A stretch of DNA of 25,631 nucleotides from a virus: IMG/VR virus record IMGVR_UViG_3300047376_000848, positions 1-25,631 of that record. One strand, 5' to 3'. The position numbers were made by a program, and so were the translations under genes. This document shows positions 4,043-25,631 of the stretch, one piece after another; position 1 is the stretch's first letter, and each line of letters opens with the position of its first letter. The notes beneath the pieces are model-generated. The model had not been told where the DNA came from. It worked only from the letters and a program-made list of their open reading frames with translations, and did no database searches.

Positions 4043-4053
4043 TTCTATTCTCC

Positions 4054-5826: not shown

Positions 5827-5895
5827 AATCGTGTCCTTTTTTCGTTAAGTTATGATAAGATTTCATAATACGGTGTATTTCTTTCAATCATTGAT

Positions 5896-5903: not shown

Positions 5904-5914
5904 CTTAACGACTT

Positions 5915-7528: not shown

Positions 7529-7862
7529 CAATCACCTTCTCATCATTTTGTTGCAGTATTCTCTGCAGGTCAGTGGTACTTCCTATGAAAACATTATTAT
7601 TAGTGATTGCCTTTTGTTCTTCTTTCTTAGGATCGTTCGTAATTTCCATGTTCTTTTTATTTAGATCCATCAGTTTATCGGTCACATCAGCGATGTTCTT
7701 GATCATTCCGGAGAGCACTTCGAACGCACGTGGGTGCTCGCTCTCGCGCGCGACCTCCATCATTAGGTCCATCCCGCGTTTGCCGTTCTCGATCAAATCG
7801 AGATATGTATCTCGGGAAGTCTCGTAATCGTCTTTGATGTTTTTCTTATCTTGATCTGTCAC
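7506..7862 (-). CDS. 16: Small terminase subunit (T4 gp16-like)
   Basis: It has 118 residues, shorter than T4 gp16 (164). The small subunit assembles into a ring, helps select viral DNA and stimulates the gp17 motor. The sequence fits the gp16 core: DYETSRDTYLDLIENGKRGM, EVARESEHPRAFEVLSGMI, a central helical pair with coiled-coil character (IADVTDKLMDLNKKNMEI), and the C-terminal NNNVFIGSTTDLQRIL, a piece typical of this family. Initiation is at GTG (7862-7860), with GAGGGAG upstream at good spacing. The start shares GTGA with the TGA stop of the preceding large structural gene, and the C-terminus overlaps gp17, so the three genes are translationally linked. Confidence 0.94.
   Translation of the reverse strand: MTDQDKKNIKDDYETSRDTYLDLIENGKRGMDLMMEVARESEHPRAFEVLSGMIKNIADVTDKLMDLNKKNMEITNDPKKEEQKAITNNNVFIGSTTDLQRILQQNDEKVIDVSDQDE
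7535..7540 (-). promoter_or_regulatory. Ribosome site deciding gp17 start
   Basis: The minus strand reads AGAAGG followed by 6 nt and the ATG at 7528. It supports that ATG over the TTG one codon upstream and over the ATG at 7513, whose upstream AGG directly abuts the start. Confidence 0.65.
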
Positions 7863-10800
7863 GGTATTTCTCCCTCGCCTTCATATAGTTCAAATGCTTC
7901 AAGAAGCACGCTCCAACTGTCCGAATTATTCGAATTGGTTTTCTCTCGAACTTCGAATGTAACATAAAGATCAGCAGAGTAATTAGGATCAGTGACTGAA
8001 ACAGTCCATGTCCTATTTTGATCAAGAGATTCCCATGCCCCGAAACTTCCAGTAACTACACCAGAGTAATAATTTCGAGTCGCCCTGATTTCATAGTCAC
8101 CTGCGTTTGCAGGTAAATTTGTAGTTGGGTTTAACCAAGTCCCGACTGTGTTTGTGACGCTCTGATTAAACGGGTTTGAACTCATGATATCACCATCAGG
8201 TTCAAACCGAACTGTTGTTGTTACTGTTTGACTGGTTGACGTCGTAGTAATGCCAGAAGGCTTGCTTGAGATCTGTACCAAGTCAGTTTGAGTGGTGTCG
8301 TTAATATTAACGAGGCGATTTGCCAGCGTAGAACCTAAGTGTGAGTCAGAAACTTCGAACGTGTATGACTCGTCTTGCAGGTCATCGTTTTCTTCTATAT
8401 CGACACGGAATGTTCCGGAATTAGAAGATACACTAAATGTTCCTGTTGCTTCATAAGTGGCACTGAAATCGTCAAAGGTTGCAGGTTGGGCGAAGTGGAA
8501 ATCGTAACCAATTGGCAAAGAAGATAGCGGTATGGCACTACTCATCGTCACTCCTGATCCTGGAGAAATACCAACGATGGTACCAGGAATATCCGGAGTG
8601 TTAGATTCCATACCTGTTGCAAGGTTAGTTGTATCTTGCAAGTAAATGAAGAATGTTCCCTGCGGGCAGACCTGATCTGTTCTAACTGAGTATATATCTG
8701 TAGTCTTATAGTGGTATGTACCGTTCTGAATATTCGTCCCGCTGAAAGTGAAGTTAATTGTATCCCCTTCGTTTGCAGAGTCGTTTGTAAGGTCCGTAAC
8801 GAGCGTTGCAGCGATAGTATCATCTGACAGAGTAAATGTATCAGTAGAAACAATCATGCCGCTGTGACTGTTTATTCGTGCAGTAATTGTACCGAGTTGA
8901 TCTCCTTGACTGCTGTCAGAAGATATCGTGTCGAAATCAATGCTTGTACTACTACTCACCGACAACGTCTTTTGAGTTACAGGGAATCGACTCGTTACTC
9001 CTGAACCGGATATATCAAAGTACAAGAATTCAGTATCCCTAGTGTCAGCAGTTATCGTAGTCGTTAATGTCTCACCTTCTGTAATGTCTGGAGCAGTCAA
9101 CGTGTACTGTGGCGTAGATGTGTCTGATATTACAATCGTGGGTGATACTGCTAACGCGCCACTAGAAGGCGTCCTAGAAACATAAAAATTGAATGACTCG
9201 TTGCCTTCTCGGATCTTATCCTGCTTTAATGAAGTGATGATTATACCGCTGCCTCCAGAAACAGTAAATGCCTGTTTTGAAGAACTCGGTGCATACCCAG
9301 AAATAAAATCGTCACTGGTTATGTTTGCGCCTTGAATCCAATAGTAGTATTGATCGTCCGAGTCTGTTGTGTCAAAGGATGCGCTGTATGAAATATATGA
9401 CTCATCAATTTGATCACTATCAACTGTCAGATCATATGTTAGATTCCCGAGGATTGTATATTCCAAAGAAGTCAGTACAGTGCCTCCGGTAGAGGAGACG
9501 ACTGCCGTAAATGTCTCTGGAGTCAGATCGCCGTTGACTGCAAACTGTAGGACAGGGTCAGGAGAACTTGTTCCTCCGGAGATAGTTACAGTTTGTGGCG
9601 CACCAACTGTAGGAACTGTTCCGGTAAAGTCTGCGGCATCAGTTTCCCCAAGAGTGACATAGAAATTCACATCCGAGTCAGTAATGTTTGTACCACCAAT
9701 AGCATAAGAAACCGAATCGCCCTCAGCGGCAGTAAATGGCGAAGGCGTGATAGTGTAGACTGGATCCGCATCTAGCAAATTAAATCCATCATTATCAGTA
9801 AACCCAGAAGTAGATGTGAACGATACTTGCCCGTTAACAACTCCTTGGTATGCTGGGTCAAAAGATGTTCCTGATAGTGCGTAAGAATCATTGATCCCGC
9901 TTACCAAGAACGAACCAGAATTTGTAATAAGTCTGGAGTCTGAACTTGCAGCACCAGAAACGCTCCAGTTAATGGTCTCACCGATCGTGGTGGAATCCAC
10001 TGCAAGTTGAGCGACAAGGTCGTTACCCTCGACAATACTACTTACCGAAAGATTGAATGTCGGTGCAGTTTCTTGCAAGAAGATACCCGTCGATCCTTTC
10101 TGAATACCGCCAATTGCTTCTGTCTGTAGCGCAACTGTAAATGTTTCCAACTCAAACGGTATTGTGTCAACTTTAGTTCTCAATGTAAACGATCCGCTGT
10201 CGTTTGATATTGAGAACGGTTCAGCATCTATTACTGATGGCGGAGGAGTAACAAAATCAGCATCGTTTGTATTTCCGTGAACAACATAATAAAACAGCGT
10301 CGTGTTTCCGTTGTTAGGAACGTTTGTCCCTTGAATATTAAACGTGATCAACTCTCCTTCGTTCGGAGTAGAATTGCTTGGTGTTATAGTGTATGCTGAA
10401 ATAAGGTCTTGAAGATTGATCAACGATTCTGCTTTTGTTCTTCCCTCGTCATCTTTAACGATAACGTTGAACATTTCAGTGCCTTCCGTCTCGCTGGAGT
10501 CAACTCGAGTTGGAATCGAGAACCTACCGATCGCGGTTCCTGCACTGTCATTGATATCAAAATATCCAGGAGATAACTCGCTCGGCGGTGTCACCAAGAA
10601 ATCAGAATCTGATGTTGAAATGTGTGAGATATAATAGAACAGCGCGGATGTATTATCTGGAACATCCGAACCGATTAGTGTGAAATCAAACGCAGTCCCT
10701 TCGAAGTCAGTAGATGATGGAGAGATAGACATAGAATACTCTGGGGTTGGTCTGTCAGTAACCGCAGAGTCTTGCATCATAATACTAGCAATCGATGTTG

Positions 10801-11428
10801 TTTCGCCGTCAATTAATACTTCTCCGGCAAGATACATTCCTGCCGGATGCGCAAACGTTTTAAAGATTTCTTTCCACTGAGAAATCGGAATACCAACACG
10901 AACCAACAATGCAAACGTTTGATAGAGTTTATCGTCTGTCAGGTATCGTAAGGAATTTGGACCTATTTGCGATTCGGTATCGCCAATCTTAAATATATTT
11001 TCTTTTGGGTATATGACTTCAGCGTCCAAACCATAGAACGAACGAAAGAACCATTCGATAGCAAAACGAGTTCCCTTTGAACGGAACATAATACTTGAGA
11101 AGTTAGCAGCAGCACGTAACTGCGTTTCGCGTTCTTCTTCTGTAGCATTTGGTTTGGAGAACCCTTGAAAGTATGCTTCACCCAGAAGTAGTTCGTCTTC
11201 GATAAATGAAAGAAGAGTAATGTCGGTTTCGTTTATATCGCGAGAAGCGAATAGGTGGTTAAGCATCTCTGCCGAAGAACCGTCAGAATCCATGAAATCA
11301 TAATAACTTTCTAACAGAGAAATAAATTTTGGATAAGATGCTGCAAAGTATTCTGGAAGAATCCCTTGTATTTTTGCCGTACGAAGGTTTATGTGCCTTC
11401 GGTTTTTATCCAAAAAATGATTATGCAT
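7859..11428 (-). CDS. Virion structural protein with Calx-beta-like repeats
   Basis: It has 1189 residues. The first 230 or so form a distinct module (GILPEYFAASYPKFISLLES then YYDFMDSDG; FIEDELLLGEAYFQGFSKP; FRSKGTRFAIEWFFRSFYG; WKEIFKTFAHPAGMYLAGE) that I associate, from memory, with virion structural proteins of marine T4-like phages. It probably anchors the protein to the tail. Then follow about seven Ig/Calx-beta-like beta sandwiches of 100-115 residues starting near residues 228, 350, 458, 557, 665, 773 and 873. They show signatures such as YTITPSNSTPNEGELITF, YTITPSPFTAAEGDSVSY and NEGDTINFTFSGTN, with DADFVTPP or DAADFTG loops. A different C-terminal domain (about 1050-1189) ends the protein. 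It starts 2 nt after the preceding stop with a weak ribosome site and ends overlapping gp16. A tail or baseplate appendage role is inference. Confidence 0.85.
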   Translation of the reverse strand: MHNHFLDKNRRHINLRTAKIQGILPEYFAASYPKFISLLESYYDFMDSDGSSAEMLNHLFASRDINETDITLLSFIEDELLLGEAYFQGFSKPNATEEERETQLRAAANFSSIMFRSKGTRFAIEWFFRSFYGLDAEVIYPKENIFKIGDTESQIGPNSLRYLTDDKLYQTFALLVRVGIPISQWKEIFKTFAHPAGMYLAGEVLIDGETTSIASIMMQDSAVTDRPTPEYSMSISPSSTDFEGTAFDFTLIGSDVPDNTSALFYYISHISTSDSDFLVTPPSELSPGYFDINDSAGTAIGRFSIPTRVDSSETEGTEMFNVIVKDDEGRTKAESLINLQDLISAYTITPSNSTPNEGELITFNIQGTNVPNNGNTTLFYYVVHGNTNDADFVTPPPSVIDAEPFSISNDSGSFTLRTKVDTIPFELETFTVALQTEAIGGIQKGSTGIFLQETAPTFNLSVSSIVEGNDLVAQLAVDSTTIGETINWSVSGAASSDSRLITNSGSFLVSGINDSYALSGTSFDPAYQGVVNGQVSFTSTSGFTDNDGFNLLDADPVYTITPSPFTAAEGDSVSYAIGGTNITDSDVNFYVTLGETDAADFTGTVPTVGAPQTVTISGGTSSPDPVLQFAVNGDLTPETFTAVVSSTGGTVLTSLEYTILGNLTYDLTVDSDQIDESYISYSASFDTTDSDDQYYYWIQGANITSDDFISGYAPSSSKQAFTVSGGSGIIITSLKQDKIREGNESFNFYVSRTPSSGALAVSPTIVISDTSTPQYTLTAPDITEGETLTTTITADTRDTEFLYFDISGSGVTSRFPVTQKTLSVSSSTSIDFDTISSDSSQGDQLGTITARINSHSGMIVSTDTFTLSDDTIAATLVTDLTNDSANEGDTINFTFSGTNIQNGTYHYKTTDIYSVRTDQVCPQGTFFIYLQDTTNLATGMESNTPDIPGTIVGISPGSGVTMSSAIPLSSLPIGYDFHFAQPATFDDFSATYEATGTFSVSSNSGTFRVDIEENDDLQDESYTFEVSDSHLGSTLANRLVNINDTTQTDLVQISSKPSGITTTSTSQTVTTTVRFEPDGDIMSSNPFNQSVTNTVGTWLNPTTNLPANAGDYEIRATRNYYSGVVTGSFGAWESLDQNRTWTVSVTDPNYSADLYVTFEVREKTNSNNSDSWSVLLEAFELYEGEGEIP

Positions 11429-11430: not shown

Positions 11431-11883
11431 TTATTCAGGTCTTGTTGGCCAAAATACTTCATCTAAACTTCTGACATTATCTAGGTTTTCTGTAATATCT
11501 CTTAACCCTTGACGATATACTGCCCATTCAGATTTAGATTCTTCTGATAAACCAGTGTCATCTAGTCTTGTCCAATCAGATAAACGAAGGTGCTTATCTC
11601 TTATTAATCGTATGTCTGTTAACAAATCTTCAGCGCTCCAAGACCAAGAAGATGTTTCCGCGTCCCAAGTACAATAATCATTTGGTCGTGATTCTCTAGT
11701 TTGCCATTCAGTCCCATCCCAATAATGAGTCTCTACCCACTCTGCAGGGTTAGGAATCGGGAAATCTATGTGTACTACTGTTCTGCCACTGGAATCCAAT
11801 CCTTCTTCTGGGAGAACGCCAATAGCGTTCTGTAAGATGACGCATTCTTGTTCTCTTACATTTGCTACATGATATATTTTCAT
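11431..11883 (-). CDS. Tail assembly chaperone-like protein
   Basis: It has 150 residues. The C-terminal half has the pattern of phage tail (fibre) assembly chaperone proteins: IRLIRDKHLRLSDWTRLDDT, LSEESKSEWAVYRQGLRDI, and a terminal VFWPTRPE. In such families the protein is often encoded next to tail-fibre genes and helps fibres fold or attach; the family assignment (Phage_tail_APC type) is from the motif only. The N-terminal half has WVETHYWDGTEWQTRES, also common in these proteins. The ATG at 11883 overlaps the preceding stop as ATGA, with AGG upstream. The local sequence looks AT-richer than the flanking genes. Confidence 0.78.
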   Translation of the reverse strand: MKIYHVANVREQECVILQNAIGVLPEEGLDSSGRTVVHIDFPIPNPAEWVETHYWDGTEWQTRESRPNDYCTWDAETSSWSWSAEDLLTDIRLIRDKHLRLSDWTRLDDTGLSEESKSEWAVYRQGLRDITENLDNVRSLDEVFWPTRPE

Positions 11884-12632
11884 ATTAGTCTGCCTATTAA
11901 AATTTGTGATGATATTCTTAGACCATAACTTGTTGTGGTAATTGAGGTCGCACCAGATCTCAAGTCTTCTTCTTGAAGATCCTCATAGTGGTAATATGCG
12001 GCGCACATTAAAGTTCGAAATGCAGGGCGAGATATAAAATATGCAGCATTCCATCGGTCAAGTTCTTGCCCTTGTCTACTGCCACTAGGCCAAACGTAAT
12101 CATTACGGTTATAATATGTCCATGTAGCAGGAGTGATAGAATCTATTTTGCTTATAGACAAATATTCCCCAGAAGTTCCGTTCGGAAGGGCATTACATAC
12201 GTTTGTATTGTATATATCAGGGTATGAATAAGAATTTAAAATTTGAAAATGTTTGTCACTTAAAACGCCCCTTGAATCAAATTGTGTGCTACCATCCTCA
12301 TTGTAAATGACCAACCCATAGTCTGCTGTGCTGCCAATGTTGGCAGAAGGACAAATAACAAAATAATCTAAATTCGTTGATGTTTTTGTAGTAGAATTAA
12401 CAGGGTTGCCATACTTGAATTGATATGTATTTCCCGAAGAATTTTCAGCAAAATAGTATCGGTTTGCTTCAGATAAGTTAGAGTTAGTAGGTTTTACAAA
12501 TAAAATGTCCCCATTATTCAATGTAATTTCACTAGCAACGCCATAAGACCTTACAACATAACTGCTTAGTCCTTTGGTTGTATCAAACATTAACTGGCTT
12601 GATGAATTGTATACTTCTAATCCGTAACTCAT
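11880..12632 (-). CDS. Putative tail surface protein with YGL-type motifs
   Basis: It has 250 residues and no enzyme motif. Two copies of a short beta motif are visible: YGLEVYNSSSQLMFDTTKG at residue 3 and YGLVIYNEDGSTQFDSRG near residue 100. The pattern resembles small phage proteins of the DUF6453 type found near tail-fibre genes (recalled, not searched). The C-terminal part is rich in aromatic residues (WNAAYFISRPAFRTLMCAAY). The start overlaps the preceding stop as TAATG, with AGGA about 7 nt upstream, and the end overlaps the chaperone-like gene, so the three small genes form one translationally coupled block. A receptor-binding or tail-tip role is plausible from position only. Confidence 0.68.
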   Translation of the reverse strand: MSYGLEVYNSSSQLMFDTTKGLSSYVVRSYGVASEITLNNGDILFVKPTNSNLSEANRYYFAENSSGNTYQFKYGNPVNSTTKTSTNLDYFVICPSANIGSTADYGLVIYNEDGSTQFDSRGVLSDKHFQILNSYSYPDIYNTNVCNALPNGTSGEYLSISKIDSITPATWTYYNRNDYVWPSGSRQGQELDRWNAAYFISRPAFRTLMCAAYYHYEDLQEEDLRSGATSITTTSYGLRISSQILIGRLI

Positions 12633-13495
12633 TATCCAATCCTAAAAACCGTAAGGTCAAAATTTATACCAATAGTCGATGTATTGCTAACTGTTAAGGT
12701 ATTTCCTGAAACAGAAGCGCTTACTCTATCACCATCAGCACTAGAAGTAGGAATAATTGCCGCTGTAACTTTAGTTGGGTCGCCTACATCATCAATTGTA
12801 ACAGATTCGCTAGAGTTTGCACCTACAGTAAAATTGGTAACCGATATTGCTTCAGTATTTAGTATGACATGATAATCGTTTGCGAAAACAACATTTCCAT
12901 CTTCATTACGAATTTCTAATCCATATCCAGTATCTGAAGGAGAAGGTTCTGGCCATGTTTCAACAGGTTCGTATAATACTCCCAACGTATAGTATGTGTT
13001 ACTCCCCGACACATACTGTTGAGTGCCTTTATAGAAAGTTGTTCCTTCTTCGGTACGTTCATCAGTACTAGATGGACCAGAAAAACTTATCTGTTGCCCA
13101 TCAAAGCTAATAATGTGATAACCCACATCTGACCTATACCTCCAACTGAATTCGGGATATTCCAACCAATTTACTGTGCCAGATTCTGGCGATGGTTCTG
13201 GTTCTGGTTCTGGCGATGGTTCTGGTTCTGGCGATGGTTCTGGTTCTGGCGATGGTTCTGGTTCTGGCGATGGTTCAGAACCAGAACGGTCGACCGAATA
13301 TATTTTTCCACCGCCGTAATCAGTAAAATCAATTTCCCATGTAGTTGGTCTGGTGTAAGTCAGCCCGCCAATAGTATATGAAGTGCCACTGATGCTAACA
13401 TTTTCTGCTACATAAACATCATTCCACATAATAGAAGATGTGTCATTAGCGTTGACGCGCCAAAAATATGCTGGTGATTGTGCACTATATGCCAT
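12632..13495 (-). CDS. Modular tail-associated protein with Pro-Glu-Ser linker
   Basis: It has 287 residues in four visible parts. An N-terminal beta domain (residues 1-70) contains [20 protein letters not shown] and [21 protein letters not shown] low-complexity linker of repeated SPEPEP (about 73-105) follows. A second domain resembles the first ([20 protein letters not shown] and [19 protein letters not shown]), pointing to internal duplication. The C-terminal domain begins [14 protein letters not shown] near residue 190 and ends [19 protein letters not shown], like DUF6453-type phage proteins. No signal peptide or membrane segment is seen. The ATG at 13495 has only weak ribosome-site sequence and lies 18 nt after the large fibre gene. 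It probably works with the next gene, which shares the YGL motif. Confidence 0.7.
13184..13276. repeat. 18-bp tandem repeat encoding SPEPEP linker
   Basis: The plus strand has five nearly perfect units of TTCTGGCGATGGTTCTGG, with one extra 6-bp TTCTGG inserted after the first unit and the last unit incomplete. All changes keep the reading frame, since both 18 and 6 are multiples of three. The array is a likely site of slippage that would change linker length without frameshift. Confidence 0.93.
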
Positions 13496-13513: not shown

Positions 13514-16500
13514 TTATTCGCCGTTAGCATTAAGTTCTGCTATTGTCAGGTTTCCAAGTTTCACTCGAAGCGTTCTGGTGCCTCCAGTAATTTCAAAAAT
13601 TTGAATAACATCTGGAGTAATGATAGTTTGACCACCGTTTTGTGATGCATCTACTATCGCAGAAGTCACAAACTTATCAGCAGTTACAGTCCCGTCTACC
13701 AGCAAATTACCATCAATAACTTCCTGTTGTTCTACCCAAGCGGATCCGCTGTAAATCCATACGGATTGTGCATCCGGAGCATTTAAGTCCCCTTGATAGA
13801 ACCACGCCTGATCGCCAGAGACAACATCACCGGCAGATCCTGCTGCCCCGTCAGCGTAGATACCTGTTTCCCATGCTTTCTGGGCATCGCTGTTACTGTT
13901 AGGAAGTCTGCCATCAGTACCGCTAGCATAATCAACGCCATCAACATCGATATGCCATCTTCCTGGTCCTCTTGAACCCTCGGTTGGCGCTGAACTTGTA
14001 CCGTCTACAATGATAGGAATAGTGATTTCGTCAACCTTCGCTAACGGACTACCGACCCACATTTCTGCACGAATCTGATCTGTGTTATCAGCAACAGTGT
14101 ACTGCCTTGACGCAGTCGCTCGAGAAGAACTTTGATGTTCTGACTCAGAACCGCCATCCGGAGTAACGTAAATGCGAATCTGACCATAGTTGCCTGTTGT
14201 TTGAGGATCGTTTCCAATTACTCTTGCCTGTGTAAAGGTAACTGCTGCAGGAGCATGTGTAGTTCCTGCTGTATCTTCACGAACAACCGCTGTACTTGAA
14301 AGCAAACGGTGTATCGTTAATGGATCAGGCGGATCAACTGGATCAGCATCTTCTCCGTCATTGACAACAGGGACTGTTTCCTCGTCAACTTTCGCACCGT
14401 CAACCCACATCTCTGTTCGAATCTGCTTGACGCCATCAGCAATGGTATACGACCTTGACTGCGCATCTCTACCCGAACTTGCATATTCAGATTCTGAACC
14501 AGCAGAGTTAGTGACGAAAATTCTCAATTCACCATAGTTTCCGTTGGTTTGTGCGCCATTACCGATTACTTTTGCCTGTGTAAATGTAACACTAGGAGGT
14601 ACGTGCGTCTCTCCGGCGAAATCTGCTTTGACTACATTCGCACTTGTTAGCAAACGATACACTACTGCCGGAGAACCGTTTTCACCTGCCTTTACTTTAG
14701 TCAACGTGAAGGTTTCAGTTCTACCAAGCGCAATAAAGGTGACAGTCGCAGTATCGACGTTCTTACCCATATGAGTAATAGTGATCGTTCTCCCGTCAGT
14801 GGAAATATCATAAGAGAAATTATCGTCAAGGTTCCCATTGTTCGTTCCAGTCGCTGGAACCTTAGTCCTTACAATATTTTCTGCAGTAGGAGTTACATCA
14901 TCAGCGCCATCATATACCGTAAATGTTGTGGTGGCGCCAGTGTAGTTGTACGGAACTCCATCATTGGCAGCGGCGATACTGTGATTTTCGTTGGTCAAGT
15001 CTGATACGAAACCAGAACCATCCACACCATCGATGGACTTAGCAATTGAATATTTTTTATCTAGAGTCAAATCGGCATCTGCTTTGGCAACTAATTCTTT
15101 CGGAACTGTCACTTCGAATACTGCTGATGCAACAAACGCAGTTTCTTCTAGAGAAGTAACAGAATACTCACCAGTAGCAGCGTCGATAGCAAAAACACCG
15201 CCAGTAGAATTAGCGTTATCCCAAGCGAATGAGCATTCGCTGGTAATCTCAGTTATGCCACGGAAGACCTTGAAGTTACCGCCAGCAGTGCTATAACTTC
15301 CATCCTTTGGATTCACTGCTGTTTTAGTCGAATCTGATTGATTGCGTAAGAACGGTTCAACGTGAGACTCGTTTGTCAAGAATCCAGTAATCGATGTGCC
15401 GTCTGCAAGACCATACATAGTGACGTAATCTCTTGCAACAACTGTAGTATAATCCGTGCCTTCAAATGCCTCAACAGTAATTACTGCAGTTGATTGTATG
15501 TCTGGTAATTGACCTTCCCCTGACAATATAACATAGGCATCACTTGTTGTGCCGCTCGCAGGTTTAATTTGCGTCTTGGTTGCACCAGGACCATCTTTGA
15601 CATAGAACTTATATGTAATTCCTGCATCAAATCCCTGTTGATCAACAACGTTAAATCTAAATTCTTGCCCAGCAATTGGCAGTCCATCTTCGCCATAGCG
15701 ATAGACCTGACCATTAACAGGTTCAAGTTTTACAGCACGCGCGTTTTGTCCGTTAACACCGCCATTTAGTCCAGGAGGACCACTTCTTCCGCGGAATGAC
15801 TTAGCAACTGAGAACTGCTTCTCGATGACAACATCTTCTTCAGTTGTCGGAATCATTGACGCAGGAACAGTAGCGGTCAACGTTGCTGAACCTTTCGGCG
15901 TAGATACCTCATCGAATGATTGCAGTCTGTATTTCCCAGGAACGTTATCATAGTTCATCAGAACATTGATTCCGGTGTTTTCGGTAATGCTAAAATCGCC
16001 TGACGTCAGATCACCAGTAATGTCAGTTGTTCCGAGATATACTTTAAACAGACCGCCAGCATCGTTCAGATGAATTTGATTACCGTCGTCATCCAGAATA
16101 ATTGGCAGCGAACCATCTGAGTCTGCTGGTTCAACGTGTGTTTCGTTAGTTAGGAATCCTGTAACTGAGAACCCGTTAGTAAGACCATACAGAGAAATGA
16201 TATCCTGAGCAACTTCTATTTCATTACCGTCTTCGTCAGTCTCATACATTTCGCATAGGAGAACTCGTACCTGCTTGACTGTCGGTTCTTCGTTGTCAGG
16301 AAGAGTAAAGTCCACCGAGTCGCTGTTCTGTAGTAATGCCTGTGGAGTTTCAAACGCAGCATCATTTTCAGTTGCGTTCTTAATTTTCCAGCGATAAGAA
16401 ACAGGACCAGTTACGTTTTCTGGTACTGCTTTGAAAGTTAGTTCGTCAAGTTCAACACCTTCTTCGTCATATCGAACAACCTGCCCGTTAAGCGGCAATA

Positions 16501-17644
16501 CTTTTACTGTACGAGCATTGATACCGTTCGCACCGTCTCGACCTGAACCACCGATTAGTTTAGCGATACTGTATTTCTTAGTTACTGTTATTCCGGTATC
16601 TGCATTAGGAATTAATGATTTCGGTACAGCAACATTCAGTTCAACACTACCCTTGTCTGTCGCCAGAGAATTGAATGAATTAATCTTGTACTCACCAGTT
16701 GAAAGGATTTCTGATGTGATACCAAGTTCAGTTCCTTTAGAATATGTTAGGCTGTTGTCGCCAGTGATATCTGTCACGCCAACGAAAACCTTTAAGAAAC
16801 CACCTGCATCTGTCAGATCACCAGTCAACTTACCGGCAGAGTCGGCAGGTTCGGTGTGTACTTCGTTCGTCAAGAACGCAGTTACAGCATCAATACCATC
16901 GACGCCGTCTTTGATGCCATAGACTGTTACATAATCGTTTGCTCTTTTATCTTCGCCAGAGGTAACAGTGACTTTGATGTTTTTGTTTTCATCATATTGC
17001 GGTTCATCGCCATCGGCAAGGAAAAATCTAGCAGAGTCTACGAAATGGGAAATAGAATTTTTAAGTTCGCCGTCGACAAAGAAATCAAAATTAATTTCTT
17101 CGACGCCAAAGTTCTCTGTTACTGCACGAAACTCCAGTGTGTCGTTTTCTGTAATTCCGTTCTTCTCATAACGGATTACTTGACCGCTCAGCGGTTCAAG
17201 TTTTACAAACGCAGGTGCTGAGTCTGCTGTGTCATCGTCTCGATTACCTAAGTCGCTGAGGTCGATATTACCTAATGTATGAGAAACATAGGAACGTACA
17301 GCACCTGCTGTAGGAAGAACAGAATCTTCAACCAAGAGATCATTTACATTATCGACGAATCCATTAACAGAGATATCTTTCGCATGATCCTTTAACATAC
17401 CGAATGTAATTGATCCGGTAGTTCGGATGTCACCGTCAAGGAGAATATCGTTGTTTACGATAAGGTCTTGATTGATAATGGCGTTTGGTCCATCGTCAGC
17501 GATATTCCTAGAGAGACCATAGAGGAGATCTTTCTTGCGCGTAACCTTAGTTTTGTTGCCGTCGCTTTTATCGTTAACAATCAGAACATCATCATCTGCT
17601 ACATCTCGGAGTTCGTCAAGTTGTGAAATTCGTACGTCTGTCAT
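13514..17644 (-). CDS. Large repetitive tail fibre-like protein
   Basis: It has 1376 residues. The N-terminus (ISQLDELRDVADDDVLIVND) matches an anchor motif common in T4-like structural proteins. Three homologous modules of about 240-260 residues begin near residues 146, 375 and 635 (VKLEPLSGQVIRYEKNG, VKVLPLNGQVVRYDEEG, VKLEPVNGQVYRYGEDG). Each includes FLTNExHxEPADS-like and KKYSIAKLIGGSGRDGANG-like segments with short Gly-rich, collagen-like breaks. A fourth, shorter unit begins near 880. Two further repeats (VVYRLLTSANVV near 995, IHRLLSSTAVV near 1108) precede a C-terminal part with GPGRWHIDVDG, YQGDLNAPDAQSVWIYSG and LLVDGTVTADKF, typical of tail tip or central fibre proteins. A late promoter box ends 33 nt upstream of the ATG. 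The role in attachment is inferred from architecture and from the chaperone-like gene downstream. Confidence 0.85.
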   Translation of the reverse strand: MTDVRISQLDELRDVADDDVLIVNDKSDGNKTKVTRKKDLLYGLSRNIADDGPNAIINQDLIVNNDILLDGDIRTTGSITFGMLKDHAKDISVNGFVDNVNDLLVEDSVLPTAGAVRSYVSHTLGNIDLSDLGNRDDDTADSAPAFVKLEPLSGQVIRYEKNGITENDTLEFRAVTENFGVEEINFDFFVDGELKNSISHFVDSARFFLADGDEPQYDENKNIKVTVTSGEDKRANDYVTVYGIKDGVDGIDAVTAFLTNEVHTEPADSAGKLTGDLTDAGGFLKVFVGVTDITGDNSLTYSKGTELGITSEILSTGEYKINSFNSLATDKGSVELNVAVPKSLIPNADTGITVTKKYSIAKLIGGSGRDGANGINARTVKVLPLNGQVVRYDEEGVELDELTFKAVPENVTGPVSYRWKIKNATENDAAFETPQALLQNSDSVDFTLPDNEEPTVKQVRVLLCEMYETDEDGNEIEVAQDIISLYGLTNGFSVTGFLTNETHVEPADSDGSLPIILDDDGNQIHLNDAGGLFKVYLGTTDITGDLTSGDFSITENTGINVLMNYDNVPGKYRLQSFDEVSTPKGSATLTATVPASMIPTTEEDVVIEKQFSVAKSFRGRSGPPGLNGGVNGQNARAVKLEPVNGQVYRYGEDGLPIAGQEFRFNVVDQQGFDAGITYKFYVKDGPGATKTQIKPASGTTSDAYVILSGEGQLPDIQSTAVITVEAFEGTDYTTVVARDYVTMYGLADGTSITGFLTNESHVEPFLRNQSDSTKTAVNPKDGSYSTAGGNFKVFRGITEITSECSFAWDNANSTGGVFAIDAATGEYSVTSLEETAFVASAVFEVTVPKELVAKADADLTLDKKYSIAKSIDGVDGSGFVSDLTNENHSIAAANDGVPYNYTGATTTFTVYDGADDVTPTAENIVRTKVPATGTNNGNLDDNFSYDISTDGRTITITHMGKNVDTATVTFIALGRTETFTLTKVKAGENGSPAVVYRLLTSANVVKADFAGETHVPPSVTFTQAKVIGNGAQTNGNYGELRIFVTNSAGSESEYASSGRDAQSRSYTIADGVKQIRTEMWVDGAKVDEETVPVVNDGEDADPVDPPDPLTIHRLLSSTAVVREDTAGTTHAPAAVTFTQARVIGNDPQTTGNYGQIRIYVTPDGGSESEHQSSSRATASRQYTVADNTDQIRAEMWVGSPLAKVDEITIPIIVDGTSSAPTEGSRGPGRWHIDVDGVDYASGTDGRLPNSNSDAQKAWETGIYADGAAGSAGDVVSGDQAWFYQGDLNAPDAQSVWIYSGSAWVEQQEVIDGNLLVDGTVTADKFVTSAIVDASQNGGQTIITPDVIQIFEITGGTRTLRVKLGNLTIAELNANGE

Positions 17645-17737: not shown

Positions 17738-20700
17738 CTATGGTAATTCCATGATACCAACTTTAGATCCGAAGTAACCGCCATCATGACCCGAAAGTCT
17801 TCCGATCAGATTAAGGTTTCCGTCATAGAGATACACATCACCGTAGTTCGGACCTTCAGCGCTGCCTAGCCATTCACCGATAGCAATCAATTCATTACCG
17901 TCAGTACCATGAACTGCGATAGAACCCTTAAATTGTCCGAAGTAATTGGACTGACCAGTTATAGTTCCGACTGAATTACCATTCTTGTCATAAACATATA
18001 CATTAGAAGAACCTTCTGCGCCAACAACAATTCTGTTGCCAGAAACATCGATAGCAGAACCAAACTTCGCGTAATTACCTAAAGGCGAATCAATCTTCGT
18101 AATCAAACTCAGATTATGGTTGTAGATCGAAACGCTTCCTTTGTAGTTTGAGTTCGCACCTTGGTTATCGTAGAAACTTCCATCGACAACCCTGTCAGTA
18201 CTGACAGCAAGGTTTGCGCCAATCATTTCACTAGTAACACCATGAATTTGCGCTTCTTGGTTACCATTACTCAGACGATACTTCGTGATCTCACCAGTGT
18301 AAGTTCCGCCATAATCTCTGGTTCTATGACCTACGAAAATGTGCGAATTAGACATTGCCATGGAGTCTCCGATGAAACCGTCAGTCTCCGAACCAACTTT
18401 ATACCATTGCTGCGCGCCATTATTGTATACAACAACTCTTCCCCTATTACTATCTACACCAGACACTTTAATCGCAACATATGGATTACTCTGTTCTGGT
18501 TGAACTGCAATCCCCTGACCAAACAAGTGACCCATGTAACCAAGGGTATTCGGATCATATGTCCTGTCTATAATGCCGTTTTGAGCATTATAGACATACA
18601 CCTTTCCAATGTCCTTCGAAGAAGCTACAAACTTATTTAATCCAACACCAAATGCCATCACTTGATTCTGACCAGACAGATATTGATTAGAGTCGCTGGT
18701 TGGTGGTGTAATCTTAGTGAACGAATTATTTTCGTACATATAAACTGCACCAGCATTTGACCCTGCTTCATCATCATAGGCAGCACCCACAACGATCGTC
18801 TTTCCTGTCAACAATGGATGATCAGGCATCACCGACTCCTGAACTGTAAAGGCAGAAGTCGTCGTCGTAGCATTACCATTCGCATCAGTCGCAGTAAATC
18901 TCATTGAGAACGAAGTCGCTTCGCTTCCTGGCGTTACTGTGAACACGTTATCAGATTGTGCTACGGTAGTGCCGTTGAGTGCAGATGTTGGAGAAATATC
19001 AAATATCTTAACCACTTCTGATCCAAAAGTATCGCCTTCAGCACCATCAAACGCAGTCAATATCGTTGGTGTAGCAGATAAGTCGTTGGCGTCATAAACG
19101 TATGTGGAACCTGTATTATTATTATCACCATACGCCGCAACAACAATATTATCATCATTGACTGATACAGAGTATCCAAATCTATCATCTGAAGTTGGTT
19201 CATTTGTAGGATCTAGTCGACCCAGATAGAAACTTGAATTTGGATTTAGGTCATCTTGGTAATTCGCATATTCAGGAAGATTGGCCAGATCATAAACGTA
19301 AGCTTTGCTCTGGTCTGAAGCACCGACAACAAGTTTATTATCACTTAGTCCAACTGATACACCAAACTTATGGGATGCGTATCCATAAATTGTTGTTTCT
19401 GGGGTTGATGATAGATTATTGAGATCGTAAACATAAACAAGACCGGCAATCCACCCACCGACTGCAAGTTTTTCTTCGTTGGCGCTCAATGCTTTACCGA
19501 AGTATGCCGTAGTGCTCGCCTGATGCTCAATTTCAGTAACAAGAGATAATGAATCAATATCATAAACATAAACCGATCCAGCTCTATTACCGCCGTGATT
19601 ATTGAATGGATCAGAAACAAAGATATAATTCGAATTCGACGTAACTTTGTCACCAAAGTCATTTGTTTCGCCCGTTAATATCGTTGGAGTCGCAGTGAGG
19701 TCATTGGCATCATAGACATAAACTTTACCCACCGCTCTGCTAGAAATAATTACTTTATCAGAAGATGAGGTGACTGAATATCCAAATTTATTTCCTGATG
19801 CTCCATCAGGTGCAGTAATTTTTGTCGGCGAAATAGATAGATCAGTCATATCGTAAACGAAAGCTGCACCAGCATCGTTGCCTAACGTATCATCACCATC
19901 AGCAGTAACAATAAGGTTGTCTCCAATTATTTCGAAATCCCTTCCAAAGAAATTTGTGGCACCTGCTGGAGTATCTAACTTAGTCGGAGTTGCAGATAAA
20001 TCTGATGAGTTATAGATATAGACCGAACCATCGTATCCATCATCTCCAAGGGCGGCAACCACCACATAACCCGAAGATCCACCAAGAACCTCTTCAAACG
20101 ACCAAGTAATTGCGTCACCTTCTACATCAGATCCAGCAGCAGTAATTACCTCAGCATCTCCACCCGCACTTAACAAGTACGAAGATTCAATACCAGCAAC
20201 AACTGGTGCTTGGTTGACGTAATCCAGTGTGAAGTCAGAAGTTACTGAAGTCACATTGCCAGCAGTATCAGTTGCTTTAAAGGTCAACTGGAAGTCAGCA
20301 TCTTGCATTCCTGGAGTCACAGTGAACACGTTATCAGATTGCGCTACAGTAGTGTCGTTGAGTGCAGATGTAGAAGAAATTGCAGCAACTGATAAACCGA
20401 ATTGATCACTCTCAGCACCATCAAATGCTGTTAGTTTAGTTGGTTGCGCTGACAGATCATTTAGGTCGTAGACATAAACTGAACCAGAACTAGATCCTCT
20501 GTCGTCGTCAGCAATTGCACCAACGATGATCTTATCATCAGCAGCAGCAACTGTAACTCCGAATTGATCACCCGCAGCAGCATCAAACGCTGTCGTCTTA
20601 GTTGGTTGAGCAGATAGATCGTTGGCATCGTAGACATAGACTGATCCAGAGGTTTCTCCGTTGTCGTCGTCGAAATATGCACCAACAACTATCTTGTCAT

Positions 20701-23700
20701 CAGTAACAGCAACTGAACAACCGAATCTATCACCCGCAGCACCATCAAACGCAGTTAGTTTCGTTGGTTGAGCAGAAAGATCATTAGCATCGTAGACATA
20801 AACTGAACCAGAATCCGTCCCGTTGTCGTCATCAAAACGTGCACCAACGACGATCTTGTCATCAGTAACAGCAACTGAATTTCCGAATTGATCGCCCTCA
20901 GCACCATCAAAGGCAGTTAGTTTTGTTGGTTGTGCAGATAGGTCATTGGCGTCATAGACGTAAACAGAACCAGAGTTAGACCCATTGTCGTCATCAAGAT
21001 TTGCACCAACAACTATCTTATCAGCAGTAGCAGCAATTGAATATCCGAAGTAATCATTCGCAGCAGCATCAAACGCTGTTAGTTTCGTTGGTTGAGCAGA
21101 AAGATCGTTGGCATCATAGACATAGACCGAACCTGAATTAGATCCGTTGTCGTTGTCGAGATATACACCAACGAAGATCTGATCAGCAGTAGCAGAAACT
21201 TTAGAACCGAATCGTTCATCCGCAGCACCATCAAACGCTGTTAGTTTTGTTGGTTGTGCAGAAAGATCATTGGCGTCATAGACATAGACTGAACCAGAGT
21301 TAGATCCGTTGTCGTCGTCGAAAAATGCACCAACGACGATCTTGTCATCAGTAACAGCAACTGAACAACCGAAATGATCATTCGCAGCAGCATCAAACGC
21401 AGTTAGTTTAGTCGGTTGAGCAGAAAGGTCATTGGCGTCATAGACATAAACTGAACCAGAGTTTGTTCCGTTGTCGTCGTTATATGCACCAACAACCACA
21501 TAATTTGCACCAGAAATTACTTCCTCAAACGACCAAGTGATCGCATCACCTTCTGGATCAGTTGCAGCAGCAGTAATTACAGTGTCCTGACCTTGTGTCA
21601 GTGTATATGCTGCATCAATGCCAGCGACCGATGGTGCTTGGTTCTGGTAATCCAGTGTGAAGTCAGAAGTTACTGAAGTCGCATTACCTTCTGAGTCAGT
21701 CGCTGTAATGCGCAACTGGAAGTCAGCATCTTGCATTCCTGGAGTTACCGTGAACACGTTATCAGACTGTGATACAGTAGTGCCGTTGAGTGCAGATGAC
21801 GCAGAAATTGCAGCAATTGAATATCCGAAGTAATCATTCGCAGCAGCATCAAACGCAGTTAGTTTCGCTGGTTGAGCAGAAAGGTTGTTCGCGTCAAAGA
21901 CGTAAACAGAACCAGAGTCAGATCCGTTGTCGTCGTCGCCATATGCTCCAACAATGATCTTATCATCAGTAGCGGAAACTGAAACACCGAAGTAATCATC
22001 CGCAGCACCATCAAATGCTGTTAGTTTATTCGGTTGAGCAGACAGATCATTTGCGTCAAAGACATAGACTGAACCAGAATTAGTTGCGTTGTCGTCGTCG
22101 CCATATGCACCAACAAAGATCTTGTCGCTAGTAGTTGCAACTGAGGAACCGAAATAATCATCCGCAGCACCATCAAACGCAGTTAGTTTAGTTGGTTGTG
22201 CAGAAAGATCATTGGCGTCAAAGACATAGACTGAACCAGAATCAGTTCCGTTGTCGTCATCTCGTTGTGCACCAACGACGATCTTATCGGCAGTAGTAGA
22301 AATACTATATCCGAATTGATCACTCGCAGCACCATCGAATGCTGTTAGTTTCGTTGGTGTAGCAGAAAGGTCATTTGCGTCATAAACATATACTGAACCC
22401 GATCCAGATCCATTGTCGTCATCAACATATGCACCAACGACGATCTTATCGGCAGTAGTAGAAATACTATATCCGAACGAATCATTCGCAGCACCATCAA
22501 ACGCTGTTAGTTTTGTTGGTTGTGCTGACAGGTTATTTGCGTCAAAGACATAAACCGATCCAGTAAAAGAATTATCACCCCATGCACCAACAATTATCTT
22601 ATCGCCGTTGACAGCAACTGAGTAACCGAATCTATCCTCTGCAGCACCGTCAAACGCTGTTAGTTTGGTCGGTTGTGCTGAAAGATTGTTCGCGTCATAA
22701 ACGTAGACTGCACCAGTGTAATCCCCGTCGACAGCATATGCTCCGACAACGATGTTATCAGCAGTAACAGCAATTGAATTACCGAAACTATGGTAGGCAT
22801 CACCATCGAATGCTGTTAGTTTAGTTGGTGAAGCAGATAAATCATTCGCGTCATAAACGTAAACTGAACCAGAGTTAGATCCGTTGTCGTCATCAGCGTA
22901 TGCTCCAACAATCACATAACTTGTACCTGTCGCAACTTCCTCAAACGACCAAGTAATCGCATCACCTTCTGGGTCAGTTCCGATTGCTGTGATCACAGTG
23001 TCCTGACCTTGTGTCAGTGTATATGCTGCATCAATGCCAGCGACCGCTGGTGCTTGGTTGACAAAGTCATAAGCGAACGTTGATGTGACCGAAGTCGCAT
23101 TACCTTCGCTGTCGGTCGCTGTAATACGCAACGTGAAGTCAGCAGAAGCAGTTCCTGGAGTCACAGTGAATACGTTATCAGATTGTGTTACTGTGACACC
23201 GTTGAGACCTGAAGGAAGCGATGATATCGCTATTTGATTTCCAAACTTATCGCCCGCTGCGGCATCAGATGGAATAATTGTTGTCGGACTAACAGACAAA
23301 TCAGTCGCGTCATAAACAAAAACTGTATTGCTATCCGAGGCTCCGACGAAAAGACTGTTGTCGATTAACCTAATTGACGCACCAAGACCTCTTTGTGGTC
23401 CATCATTGATATCGCCGATTTCTTTATTTACTTTGACTGGTGCTGCAGAAAGATCGCTTCTATCAAATCTATAGAATGCTTCCCCTGGTCCCGCATTTGC
23501 GCCAACAAAAATATAGTCAGAATTAACTTCGATCGCATTACCGAACATTCTCATTCCTGAAATTCCGTCGTTCGCTTCGAGCACAGTCGGTGCGGCACCT
23601 AAGTTATTCGCATCATAGACATAAACCTTTCCAGCATTACTATTAGCGCGTTGAGATCCAACTATGATTACGTCGTCAAATACTCGAACGGTAGAACCCA

Positions 23701-25631
23701 TAAAACTGGATCCTGATTGAGTCAACTTTGTTGGTGTTGCAGATAGATTACTTACATCGTAAACATAAGCAGCACCATCAAAACTATTGTCATCATATGC
23801 TCCTACGACCATATAATTATCATCAGCGTCTATACTTGCCACGTATCCGTCTACGCCCACACCACCATATACAGAGTTATCTGGTGTTAACTTTGTTGGT
23901 GTTGCTGTCAGATCATTAATGTCATAGACGTAAATCGCTCCTGCTTCATCAGCAGCATCGTCATCATTTGGAGAAGTAATGAAAATGTAATTACTATTCG
24001 TGGCAACCGAATTTCCAAAACGATCGTCGGCACCACCTTCTTCTAATTTGATTGGTGCTGCAGACAAGTCTGTTAAATCATAGACATAGACTGAACCAGA
24101 GTTCACTTCAGGGTTGTCGTCATGCGCTGCACCAACTACAAGTTTGTTTTGAGATATAGAAACCGAATAACCGAATCGATCATGCGCTTCTGGTTCTGGA
24201 TTAGATAGTTTAATCGGTTGTGCCGATAAGTCGCTGGAATCGTAAACATAAACCGAACCCGAACTGGACGCAACGTCGTCGTCTGCATCAGCAGTAACAG
24301 CAATATATCTTGATCCTGACATTACCTCTTCAAACGACCAAGTGATCGCATCGCCTTCTGGATCGACCCCAGTAGCAGTGATCACAGTGTCCTGACCTTG
24401 AGTCAGTGTATATGCTGCGTCAATGCCAGCGACAGATGGTGCTTGGTTCTGGTAATCAAAGTCGAACGTTGGTGTGACCGAAGTTGCGTTACCTTCGCTG
24501 TCGGTCGCTGTAATACGCAACGTGAAGTCAGCAGAAGCAGTTCCTGGAGTCACAGTGAATACGTTATCAGATTGTGTTACTGTGACACCGTTGAGAGCAG
24601 ATGGTGCTGGGTATCCTACCATATCTCCTGTAAAGTTAGCATACTCTTCGGATCCAGCAATTTCTTGAGGAGCAGAACTTAAATCAGTTCCGTCGTATAC
24701 AAACAATCTGCCTGTGGAATTATTTACATCTGCTTCTCCAACAAACAGATTATCTCCAACGATTGCAAGGTCATCCCCGAAAGCACCACCAGCGCCGTCA
24801 TTAAGAACAACTGGTGCAGCAGAAAGGTCAGTCATGTCAAATACATGAACCGTGCGAGTGTTGCCGCGCTTTTGAACCATCAAATACTTCGAAGAAACTG
24901 CAAGGAATTTTCCAAAATAATCGTTGCTAGACCTGTTTGAAGCGGTCACAATCGCCTGAGGCGAAGACAAATCGTTGAGGTCATAGACATACACAGTTCC
25001 TGCATGCGTCAAACTTCCCTCATAACCGTATGCTGAACTGAACACTAAATGCGTTTCAGTGACTTCCATCCAACCGTTGTCTAAACTAACATTCATCGGA
25101 TTGTTTATAACTGTAGGTGCAGCAGACAAATCGTTAGTGTCCCAGACCTGCACTATACCATATGATTCGTTTAAAGCACGTTCTTGCGTTGCAAATAATT
25201 TGTTTCCTGCAACTTTAATAGTCTTAGCGAATTGTTCGTGACTTTTGGCACTGCTGGAATAAACTAACGTTGGACTCGCATTTAAATCGTTCAAATCATA
25301 AACAGTTATTTGACCAACATTGTTGTTTTGATCTGGTTGACCGACATATAGTTTATTGTCAAATAATGCAGTTGAATCAACTGAAGGGTTATTTGGTATT
25401 TCGATAGGTTCTGCAGATAAATCGCTAAGGTCGTAGACCCATGCAGTCGTTCCCGCCATACCTGCAAATTTTCCGCTACCAACAGACAACTTAGACAAAC
25501 CCTTCGGTAAGGTAGTCACAAGATTCATTGTAGATGAGTCATAAACCCGAGTATTGCTTCCATCTTTCACGAAAACGTATGATTCGCCCACTTCTTCAAA
25601 CGACCAAGTGATCGCATCACCTTCTGGATCG
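17738..25631 (-). CDS. Giant multi-propeller adhesin-like protein, N-terminus outside window
   Basis: At least 2630 codons are in frame, ending in TAG at 17738-17740. Coding continues through the right edge: the 13 codons before the GTG at 25591 read DPEGDAITWSFEE, the same motif found before the other inserted propellers, so that GTG is internal. Six blocks each carry seven FG-GAP-type blades (pattern YFGYSIAATADKIVVGA then DDDNGSNSGSVYVYD): A 24610-25591, B 23225-24322, C 21807-22933, D 20379-21517, E 19000-20086, F 17741-18809. Between blocks lie cadherin/Ig-like halves (QAPSVAGIDAAYTLTQGQDT and SALNGTTVSQSDNVFTVTPG). Asp-rich loops resemble the Ca-binding loops of integrin-type FG-GAP blades. 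No signal peptide or membrane segment is visible in the window. Promoter and N-terminal anchor lie outside it. A long virion fibre or adhesin is the best guess; a distal tail-fibre role is not proven. Confidence 0.88.
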   Translation of the reverse strand, partial: DPEGDAITWSFEEVGESYVFVKDGSNTRVYDSSTMNLVTTLPKGLSKLSVGSGKFAGMAGTTAWVYDLSDLSAEPIEIPNNPSVDSTALFDNKLYVGQPDQNNNVGQITVYDLNDLNASPTLVYSSSAKSHEQFAKTIKVAGNKLFATQERALNESYGIVQVWDTNDLSAAPTVINNPMNVSLDNGWMEVTETHLVFSSAYGYEGSLTHAGTVYVYDLNDLSSPQAIVTASNRSSNDYFGKFLAVSSKYLMVQKRGNTRTVHVFDMTDLSAAPVVLNDGAGGAFGDDLAIVGDNLFVGEADVNNSTGRLFVYDGTDLSSAPQEIAGSEEYANFTGDMVGYPAPSALNGVTVTQSDNVFTVTPGTASADFTLRITATDSEGNATSVTPTFDFDYQNQAPSVAGIDAAYTLTQGQDTVITATGVDPEGDAITWSFEEVMSGSRYIAVTADADDDVASSSGSVYVYDSSDLSAQPIKLSNPEPEAHDRFGYSVSISQNKLVVGAAHDDNPEVNSGSVYVYDLTDLSAAPIKLEEGGADDRFGNSVATNSNYIFITSPNDDDAADEAGAIYVYDINDLTATPTKLTPDNSVYGGVGVDGYVASIDADDNYMVVGAYDDNSFDGAAYVYDVSNLSATPTKLTQSGSSFMGSTVRVFDDVIIVGSQRANSNAGKVYVYDANNLGAAPTVLEANDGISGMRMFGNAIEVNSDYIFVGANAGPGEAFYRFDRSDLSAAPVKVNKEIGDINDGPQRGLGASIRLIDNSLFVGASDSNTVFVYDATDLSVSPTTIIPSDAAAGDKFGNQIAISSLPSGLNGVTVTQSDNVFTVTPGTASADFTLRITATDSEGNATSVTSTFAYDFVNQAPAVAGIDAAYTLTQGQDTVITAIGTDPEGDAITWSFEEVATGTSYVIVGAYADDDNGSNSGSVYVYDANDLSASPTKLTAFDGDAYHSFGNSIAVTADNIVVGAYAVDGDYTGAVYVYDANNLSAQPTKLTAFDGAAEDRFGYSVAVNGDKIIVGAWGDNSFTGSVYVFDANNLSAQPTKLTAFDGAANDSFGYSISTTADKIVVGAYVDDDNGSGSGSVYVYDANDLSATPTKLTAFDGAASDQFGYSISTTADKIVVGAQRDDDNGTDSGSVYVFDANDLSAQPTKLTAFDGAADDYFGSSVATTSDKIFVGAYGDDDNATNSGSVYVFDANDLSAQPNKLTAFDGAADDYFGVSVSATDDKIIVGAYGDDDNGSDSGSVYVFDANNLSAQPAKLTAFDAAANDYFGYSIAAISASSALNGTTVSQSDNVFTVTPGMQDADFQLRITATDSEGNATSVTSDFTLDYQNQAPSVAGIDAAYTLTQGQDTVITAAATDPEGDAITWSFEEVISGANYVVVGAYNDDNGTNSGSVYVYDANDLSAQPTKLTAFDAAANDHFGCSVAVTDDKIVVGAFFDDDNGSNSGSVYVYDANDLSAQPTKLTAFDGAADERFGSKVSATADQIFVGVYLDNDNGSNSGSVYVYDANDLSAQPTKLTAFDAAANDYFGYSIAATADKIVVGANLDDDNGSNSGSVYVYDANDLSAQPTKLTAFDGAEGDQFGNSVAVTDDKIVVGARFDDDNGTDSGSVYVYDANDLSAQPTKLTAFDGAAGDRFGCSVAVTDDKIVVGAYFDDDNGETSGSVYVYDANDLSAQPTKTTAFDAAAGDQFGVTVAAADDKIIVGAIADDDRGSSSGSVYVYDLNDLSAQPTKLTAFDGAESDQFGLSVAAISSTSALNDTTVAQSDNVFTVTPGMQDADFQLTFKATDTAGNVTSVTSDFTLDYVNQAPVVAGIESSYLLSAGGDAEVITAAGSDVEGDAITWSFEEVLGGSSGYVVVAALGDDGYDGSVYIYNSSDLSATPTKLDTPAGATNFFGRDFEIIGDNLIVTADGDDTLGNDAGAAFVYDMTDLSISPTKITAPDGASGNKFGYSVTSSSDKVIISSRAVGKVYVYDANDLTATPTILTGETNDFGDKVTSNSNYIFVSDPFNNHGGNRAGSVYVYDIDSLSLVTEIEHQASTTAYFGKALSANEEKLAVGGWIAGLVYVYDLNNLSSTPETTIYGYASHKFGVSVGLSDNKLVVGASDQSKAYVYDLANLPEYANYQDDLNPNSSFYLGRLDPTNEPTSDDRFGYSVSVNDDNIVVAAYGDNNNTGSTYVYDANDLSATPTILTAFDGAEGDTFGSEVVKIFDISPTSALNGTTVAQSDNVFTVTPGSEATSFSMRFTATDANGNATTTTSAFTVQESVMPDHPLLTGKTIVVGAAYDDEAGSNAGAVYMYENNSFTKITPPTSDSNQYLSGQNQVMAFGVGLNKFVASSKDIGKVYVYNAQNGIIDRTYDPNTLGYMGHLFGQGIAVQPEQSNPYVAIKVSGVDSNRGRVVVYNNGAQQWYKVGSETDGFIGDSMAMSNSHIFVGHRTRDYGGTYTGEITKYRLSNGNQEAQIHGVTSEMIGANLAVSTDRVVDGSFYDNQGANSNYKGSVSIYNHNLSLITKIDSPLGNYAKFGSAIDVSGNRIVVGAEGSSNVYVYDKNGNSVGTITGQSNYFGQFKGSIAVHGTDGNELIAIGEWLGSAEGPNYGDVYLYDGNLNLIGRLSGHDGGYFGSKVGIMELP
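20379..21517. repeat. Propeller D: 162-bp blade repeats
   Basis: Seven blades of 54 codons lie in tandem. For example, GCAGTTAG at 20751 and 20913 is spaced exactly 162 bp. Conserved pieces in plus-strand order include ACCATCAAA, GTTGGTTG and CATAGACAT. All seven blades end in YVYDANDLSAQP or YVYDLNDLSAQP. Together with propeller C this is the most homogeneous part of the window. Confidence 0.9.
21807..22933. repeat. Propeller C: 162-bp blade repeats
   Basis: Seven blades similar in DNA and protein to propeller D, with a few shorter variants: two blades near 22560 and 22710 have shortened Asp loops (GDNSFTGS and VDGDYTGA). Several units carry YVFD in place of YVYD. The close match to D suggests a recent whole-propeller duplication or gene conversion. 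Confidence 0.88.

Follow-up and report, generated by a model that had tools for sequence, protein, structure and literature searches.

Seven-bladed propellers nested in series within the Ig-like domains of a putative phage fibre protein and evidence for their exchange between scaffolds

The DNA under study, referred to here as the window, is a stretch of 25,631 nucleotides corresponding to positions 1 to 25,631 of the IMG/VR virus record IMGVR_UViG_3300047376_000848. A fibre gene that is cut by the contig edge lies next to tail and packaging genes of the same orientation, and the following features were identified:

1598-7862, minus strand: T4-like packaging and tail block with terminase small and large subunits, tail sheath, tail tube and portal (PHROG)
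7859-11428, minus strand: protein with baseplate-wedge-like N-terminus and long repeat extension (PF23786)
11431-11883, minus strand: tail-fibre-assembly-like protein (phrog_4912)
13514-17644, minus strand: 1376-aa tail protein, the next gene downstream of the fibre gene
17738-25631, minus strand: fibre gene, truncated at its 5' end by the contig edge, with five propeller-holding Ig-like domains plus a terminal propeller, 2630 aa seen
24449-25630, minus strand: nested unit 1; Ig N-half fragment 25589-25630, propeller 24602-25588 (seven blades), Ig C-half 24449-24601
23060-24448, minus strand: nested unit 2, for which an AlphaFold model was obtained; Ig N-half 24323-24448, propeller 23213-24322, Ig C-half 23060-23212
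21644-23059, minus strand: nested unit 3; Ig N-half 22934-23059, propeller 21797-22933 (apparently recently amplified blades), Ig C-half 21644-21796
20216-21643, minus strand: nested unit 4; Ig N-half 21518-21643, propeller 20369-21517 (near-identical 162-bp blades), Ig C-half 20216-20368
18833-20215, minus strand: nested unit 5; Ig N-half 20087-20215, propeller 18986-20086, Ig C-half 18833-18985
18981-20110, minus strand: putative exchanged cassette, 1130 bp identical to unit 6 of the relative L011, in the Ig scaffold of L011 unit 7
17741-18832, minus strand: terminal seven-bladed propeller, not nested, at the fibre tip

The fibre reading frame comprises 2630 codons, runs from 25630 to 17738 on the minus strand, remains open at the window edge and terminates with a stop codon at 17738-17740. 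As the contig ends inside unit 1 and the gene runs off it, five nested propellers and one terminal propeller represent the minimum for this protein, and the chain upstream of the window edge may be longer than what is seen. With a contractile tail and a packaging block in the window (PHROG matches), the virus qualifies as a T4-like (Kyanoviridae-related) myovirus, and the terminase closest to that of the window belongs to phage C48C1 (74%). Three further observations concern the remaining genes. A collagen-like tail fibre fragment (2-1591) runs off the other contig end, a short tandem repeat of 6/18-bp units (13184-13276) encodes a PEPSPEPEP stretch in a 287-aa protein (12632-13495), and in the gene at 7859-11428 a baseplate-wedge/Hc2-like N-terminus is extended by about 900 aa made up of beta-rich repeats, which is unusual for a core tail protein.

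Relatives of the fibre gene were gathered by searching IMG/VR with the inter-propeller segment (linker profile A1); an earlier scan of viral contigs with peptides of the whole protein had been too specific and returned none. The relative L011 is full-length (4241 aa) and contains seven nested units. Its fibre gene is flanked by neck Hc2 and sheath stabilizer genes upstream and by a tail protein gene downstream. The start of the 1376-aa tail protein gene of the window is 96% DNA-identical to the gene that follows the L011 fibre, and the two fibre loci are therefore syntenic. The location of the L011 fibre near the neck gene fits the hypervariable host-recognition cluster of marine T4-like myophages, which adjoins the gp14 neck gene (PMC7029224). 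The N-termini of the relatives' fibres are conserved (MRFRHLTSA), a sequence feature that would be expected of an anchor, while the N-terminus of the window's own fibre lies beyond the contig. The fibre tips differ: the window fibre ends in a propeller, that of L011 in a laminin-G domain and that of L012 in one resembling a cupredoxin. No psbA gene that might hint at the host was found in the fragments searched.

Counting the C-strands of the [VI]YVYD type yielded seven in each of six blocks of the fibre protein and 42 in total, as the original prediction had stated. Five of the six blocks start directly after D(P/V)EGDAITWSFEEV and end directly before S(A/G)LN(G/D)xTVxQSDNVFTVTP, with 329-383 residues between these segments in the five copies, so that the borders proposed earlier, SFEEV and (S/P)(A/G)LN(G/D)xTV, are present in all five. 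The C-terminal block of 364 residues likewise contains seven FG-GAP C-strands and lies outside any Ig-like domain, which bears out the assignment of five nested propellers and one terminal propeller. The profile search that had been proposed as a check gave a score of 865 bits for PF14312 (FG-GAP_2) against the fibre protein (cut-off 23), so the blade profile is met, and 31 matches to PF14312 were found in the window DNA. A phmmer search of the fibre protein against the PDB gave no match, and PHROGs contains no family for it. The DxDxDG calcium motif of alpha-integrins and VCBS propellers has no match in the 2630 aa, even when D or N is allowed at the acidic positions. The protein is therefore filed as an FG-GAP-type propeller protein and not as an integrin, and calcium-dependent, integrin-like binding is not claimed.

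The six propellers differ in the similarity of their blades. In block 3, blades are spaced at 51-54 aa and share a mean blade-blade identity of 73%; in block 4, the spacing is 54 aa and the identity 78%, and in both blocks the DNA has a tandem period of 162 bp. The blades of blocks 1, 2, 5 and 6 have diverged to 29-39% identity, and the fibre gene is thus not one runaway tandem repeat. Judged from these identities, the protein appears to be a mixture of freshly amplified (blocks 3 and 4) and old, diverged propellers.

The domain that hosts the propellers is a Big_9/cadherin-like domain of approximately 93 residues, and the five blocks sit between its two halves. Empty, i.e., contiguous, copies of this domain with approximately 0-10 residues between the halves were found 41 times in the collected loci, some of which are near-duplicates. 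The L012 reading frame combines six occupied and three empty Ig copies in one polypeptide, where an empty WSFAEV-LNGGVP-SGLNGTAITQ can be compared with an occupied WSFEEV-371 aa-SQLNGVTVTQ, and phage C48C1 carries one empty copy in one protein and two occupied copies in a neighboring gene. The empty copies match Big_9 (PF17963) over its full length (1-89/89) and the occupied copies align to the empty ones, in line with a Big_9/cadherin-like Ig domain. Of the evidence for nesting, these empty sites weigh most. Since the linker between two propellers is itself contiguous and, at 93 aa, of domain length, the arrangement could also be read as tandem and not nested; each C-half would then pair with the next N-half as an Ig domain in circular permutation and link the propellers like a string of beads. 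This possibility is hardly tenable, as contiguous copies invariably run from N-half to C-half and match Big_9 end to end, and as a permuted domain would leave an orphan half at each end of an array: the arrays of C48C1, L011 and L012 open with an N-half and close with a C-half, and the L013 array likewise opens with an N-half and that in the window closes with a C-half. In addition, the strand order of the occupied model described below equals that of the empty domain.

Structure prediction, which had likewise been suggested as a check, was carried out for unit 2 and for an empty domain. The AlphaFold (AF2) model of unit 2 (pLDDT 87.4, pTM 0.82) shows an integrin-like propeller whose insert is composed of 28 strands, equivalent to seven four-stranded blades. 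Strands B, C and D of one blade come first and the A strand of that same blade comes last, so that the predicted ring is closed in a 3+1 manner. This strand order agrees with the proposal that part-blades at both ends complete the ring as in integrins, and the model was read as a closed seven-blade propeller and not as an open solenoid. The empty domain (pLDDT 94.1, pTM 0.85) is predicted to have strands at 5-7, 12-14, 21-28 and 35-41 before the insertion point and at 55-59, 62-66, 72-82 and 87-96 after it; the corresponding strands of occupied unit 2 are 5-7, 12-16, 21-28 and 35-42, followed by 419-423, 426-430, 436-446 and 451-460. The strand starts after the insert (55, 62, 72 and 87 in the empty form; 419, 426, 436 and 451 in the occupied form) are consequently displaced by a constant 364 residues. 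In Foldseek searches, the top PDB matches of unit 2 were integrin alpha chains, and the top folds for the empty domain were SraP and cadherin modules. Both models describe single chains, and the statements on sheet pairing and ring closure rest on the order of the strands, the Foldseek matches and the offset between empty and occupied form, not on inspected coordinates. The earlier claim that the flanks form one Ig-like domain is upheld, as the insert-free domain exists, matches Big_9 and is predicted to fold as one sandwich with equal strands and spacing. Empty forms, matched models and strand register together support true nesting of the propellers in the Ig domain.

In comparisons across phages, the Ig halves are the conserved part, with means of 72% and 63%, against a mean of 38% for the propellers. 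Propeller 5 of the window departs from this pattern, as it is 100% identical to that of L011 unit 6 over 1130 bp, whereas the surrounding Ig halves are only 57/58% identical. Instead, the Ig arms around propeller 5 share exact runs of 128 and 71 bp with the last L011 unit (unit 7), and the 1130-bp cassette has its borders within the codons for ITWSFEEV and SALNG. One deletion alone could not bring the unit 6 propeller to lie between the two halves of the unit 7 scaffold, while a replacement with two crossovers could. Among IMG/VR contigs, only L011 closely shares propellers 5 and 1 of the window. In a second case, the propellers of L013 unit 2 and L011 unit 7 are 92% identical at the amino acid level and their Ig halves 67/57%. 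The siblings L012 and L013 are 87% identical in DNA over 5.2 kb upstream and 89% over 1.4 kb downstream, yet the propellers of their second nested unit are unrelated despite the same Ig domain. The nested unit that directly follows their shared un-nested propeller is also swapped, and L013 carries the propeller of L011 unit 1 at this position. Within the window, the linker DNA between units is 67-89% identical with exact runs of up to 108 bp, so that homology for recombination is present.

Assembly errors in repeat-rich metagenomes might mimic such exchange: all close relatives are metagenomic contigs, and an erroneous join at conserved Ig DNA could in principle account for the block of 100% identity. 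However, the left junction between L011 and the window shares only about 20 bases, which is shorter than the usual assembly k-mers. Two more cases involve non-identical propellers (about 95% DNA identity) on contigs with different metagenome identifiers, and the swap between L012 and L013 places an unrelated propeller between flanks of 87% and 89% identity. An artefact is therefore considered very unlikely, and, as far as sequence comparison can tell, the propellers behave as exchangeable whole cassettes between Ig scaffolds and phages. Separately, two adjacent in-frame stop codons (TAG TAA, L012:14618-14623) were noted in the last nested propeller of L012, after which the frame is intact to the cupredoxin-like tip; they may reflect a sequencing error, a pseudogene or a real truncation.

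In a tree of the Ig core, the occupied copies group together with three changes, on a short alignment and with many forks left unresolved. A single origin of the occupied copies was not rejected (p-AU 0.41), and repeated independent insertion of propellers is therefore not claimed. The simplest history is that a propeller was inserted once into an empty Ig domain of a phage and that duplication and cassette exchange came later. No nested units were detected among 84,980 cellular species at the sensitivity used, only empty or more distant Ig domains, and several of these matches lie on contigs sized like virus records filed in MAGs. Phages S-SCSM2R, Phosso, S-MbCM6, nt-1 and S-H9-1 have propellers and lack this Ig scaffold. 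Other arrangements were encountered among the loci. Several reading frames of L020, L025, L029 and L032 encode an empty Ig domain followed by a C-terminal seven-blade block, with such genes side by side, possibly an un-nested precursor arrangement. A giant 3901-aa reading frame (L019:4298-16000) contains one nested propeller near its N-terminus and then very long YTRTR(x)S repeats. The cyanophage isolate S-MbCM6 (L061, KJ019064 50873-71941) encodes a structural protein of about 7,000 aa between gp6 and gp9, with one FG-GAP propeller adjoining a laminin-G-like segment. Similar FG-GAP propellers, some with collagen repeats, exist in giant viruses (pithovirus, mimivirus, yasminevirus and medusavirus) according to BFVD matches of the unit 2 model.

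Taken as a whole, the best explanation, which is considered probable, is that the gene provides a T4-like marine myovirus with a long adhesive fibre, in which an Ig backbone carries side propellers that are exchanged as cassettes. The architecture, the empty and occupied forms and the exchange are read from sequence and the folds are predicted, whereas location on the virion, host binding and homologous recombination as the route are inferred. The backbone would be a string of cadherin-like Ig domains, and in each occupied domain the loop that follows strand C would carry one entire seven-bladed propeller of the integrin type, placed at the side like a charm on a bracelet. Because the 3+1 strand closure sets both ends of the insert side by side, the sandwich would fold as it does with a short loop. 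Binding to host surface structures, probably sugars, is the most likely role of the propellers, which would thereby provide multivalent contact; the variable tip domain may add one more contact. The conserved Ig DNA flanking each propeller may serve as homology arms, by means of which propellers could be duplicated, moved and exchanged as in-frame cassettes with the backbone undisturbed.

A fibre with several lateral heads and a tip is an inference, and gene neighborhood and domain content are the only support for a role on the virion or in receptor binding. Thus, the propellers could instead be structural spacers or decoration, with the host recognized by the tip alone (propeller, laminin-G or cupredoxin-like). 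Tips do vary between phages, the DxDxDG metal site is missing and no catalytic or lectin signature was found. This alternative is nevertheless judged unlikely, as whole propellers have diverged to 22-50% and change places on a conserved Ig backbone, which is the pattern expected of recognition modules. In integrin propellers, the D-A and B-C loops form the ligand-binding face. Variation within the blades of the fibre is high in these same loops, though also in strand A. The most likely interpretation remains a fibre for multivalent host recognition that recombination in the Ig arms has diversified, with binding, host and ligand inferred in the absence of data. Ligand, host and virion proteomics data are lacking, and this counts against it together with the absent DxDxDG motif and the metagenomic origin of all close relatives; a monomeric bead chain would also be unusual for a phage fibre. 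The more specific reading that the conserved Ig backbone with its fixed loop acts as a rack, on which complete propeller heads change position within a phage and pass between phages via Ig-arm recombination as a dedicated means of diversifying phage adhesins, is regarded as evenly poised. If true, a single fibre would give each phage an individual set of many binding specificities.

Several known systems resemble parts of this architecture. FG-GAP/alpha-integrin propellers (PF14312; integrin alphaV, alpha4 and alpha5) share the seven blades, the FG...GA frame and the 3+1 closure and are the top structural matches. Integrins, however, have DxDxDG calcium loops, which the window fibre lacks, and an N-terminal propeller head followed by Ig-like domains, in contrast to propellers inserted in Ig domains in series. 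A virion structural protein of cyanophage S-TIM5 (H6WG31, 407 aa) belongs to the same propeller family with the same strand register (B first, A last) and aligns with the unit 2 model over 389 columns at 2.9 A, but is a single stand-alone propeller without Ig scaffold. In prolyl oligopeptidase, which was among the Foldseek matches of unit 2, a seven-bladed propeller is inserted within another domain; there, the host domain is an alpha/beta hydrolase with a single insert that gates the enzyme. The muzzle protein gp44 of crAss001 is a phage tail protein that also joins a seven-bladed propeller and Ig-like domains by insertion, but in reverse, with the Ig domains inside the propeller, and it is a single-copy structural tail component (PMC10172136). 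T4 Hoc and other phage Ig-like strings form a string of variable Ig-like domains on the virion (PMC10385173), but decorate the capsid and are without propeller inserts.

A close counterpart is WJE88002 of phage C48C1 (Kyanoviridae), annotated only as hypothetical, which has two nested units and an N-terminus (MRTRHLASA) similar to the MRFRHLTSA of the window's relatives. It differs in having only two units and no terminal propeller, and the empty Ig domain resides in a separate protein. No description of WJE88002 was found in the literature searched, nor was serial nesting of propellers in Ig domains with whole-propeller exchange at fixed borders. The original prediction that no phage fibre with this nested plan had been described thus stands with regard to published descriptions and has to be qualified slightly with regard to deposited sequences. 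Ig strings, phage FG-GAP propellers, reverse nesting (crAss001 gp44; PMC10172136) and modular fibres are already known. What goes beyond the first reading is that the nested layout recurs in related phages and that propellers are, by all appearances, exchanged between Ig scaffolds.

Continuous amplification of propeller blades is an established process (PMC9218822), which the window fibre extends to a phage fibre that would mix young and old propellers. It also offers a natural example of a propeller inserted in a beta-sandwich without breaking the sandwich, which is useful for protein design. The usual view of tail-fibre evolution is tip swapping; here, large folded domains are nested serially at one fixed loop. 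As the propellers appear to be exchanged as units with traceable borders, the link between recognition module and host range would become testable module by module.
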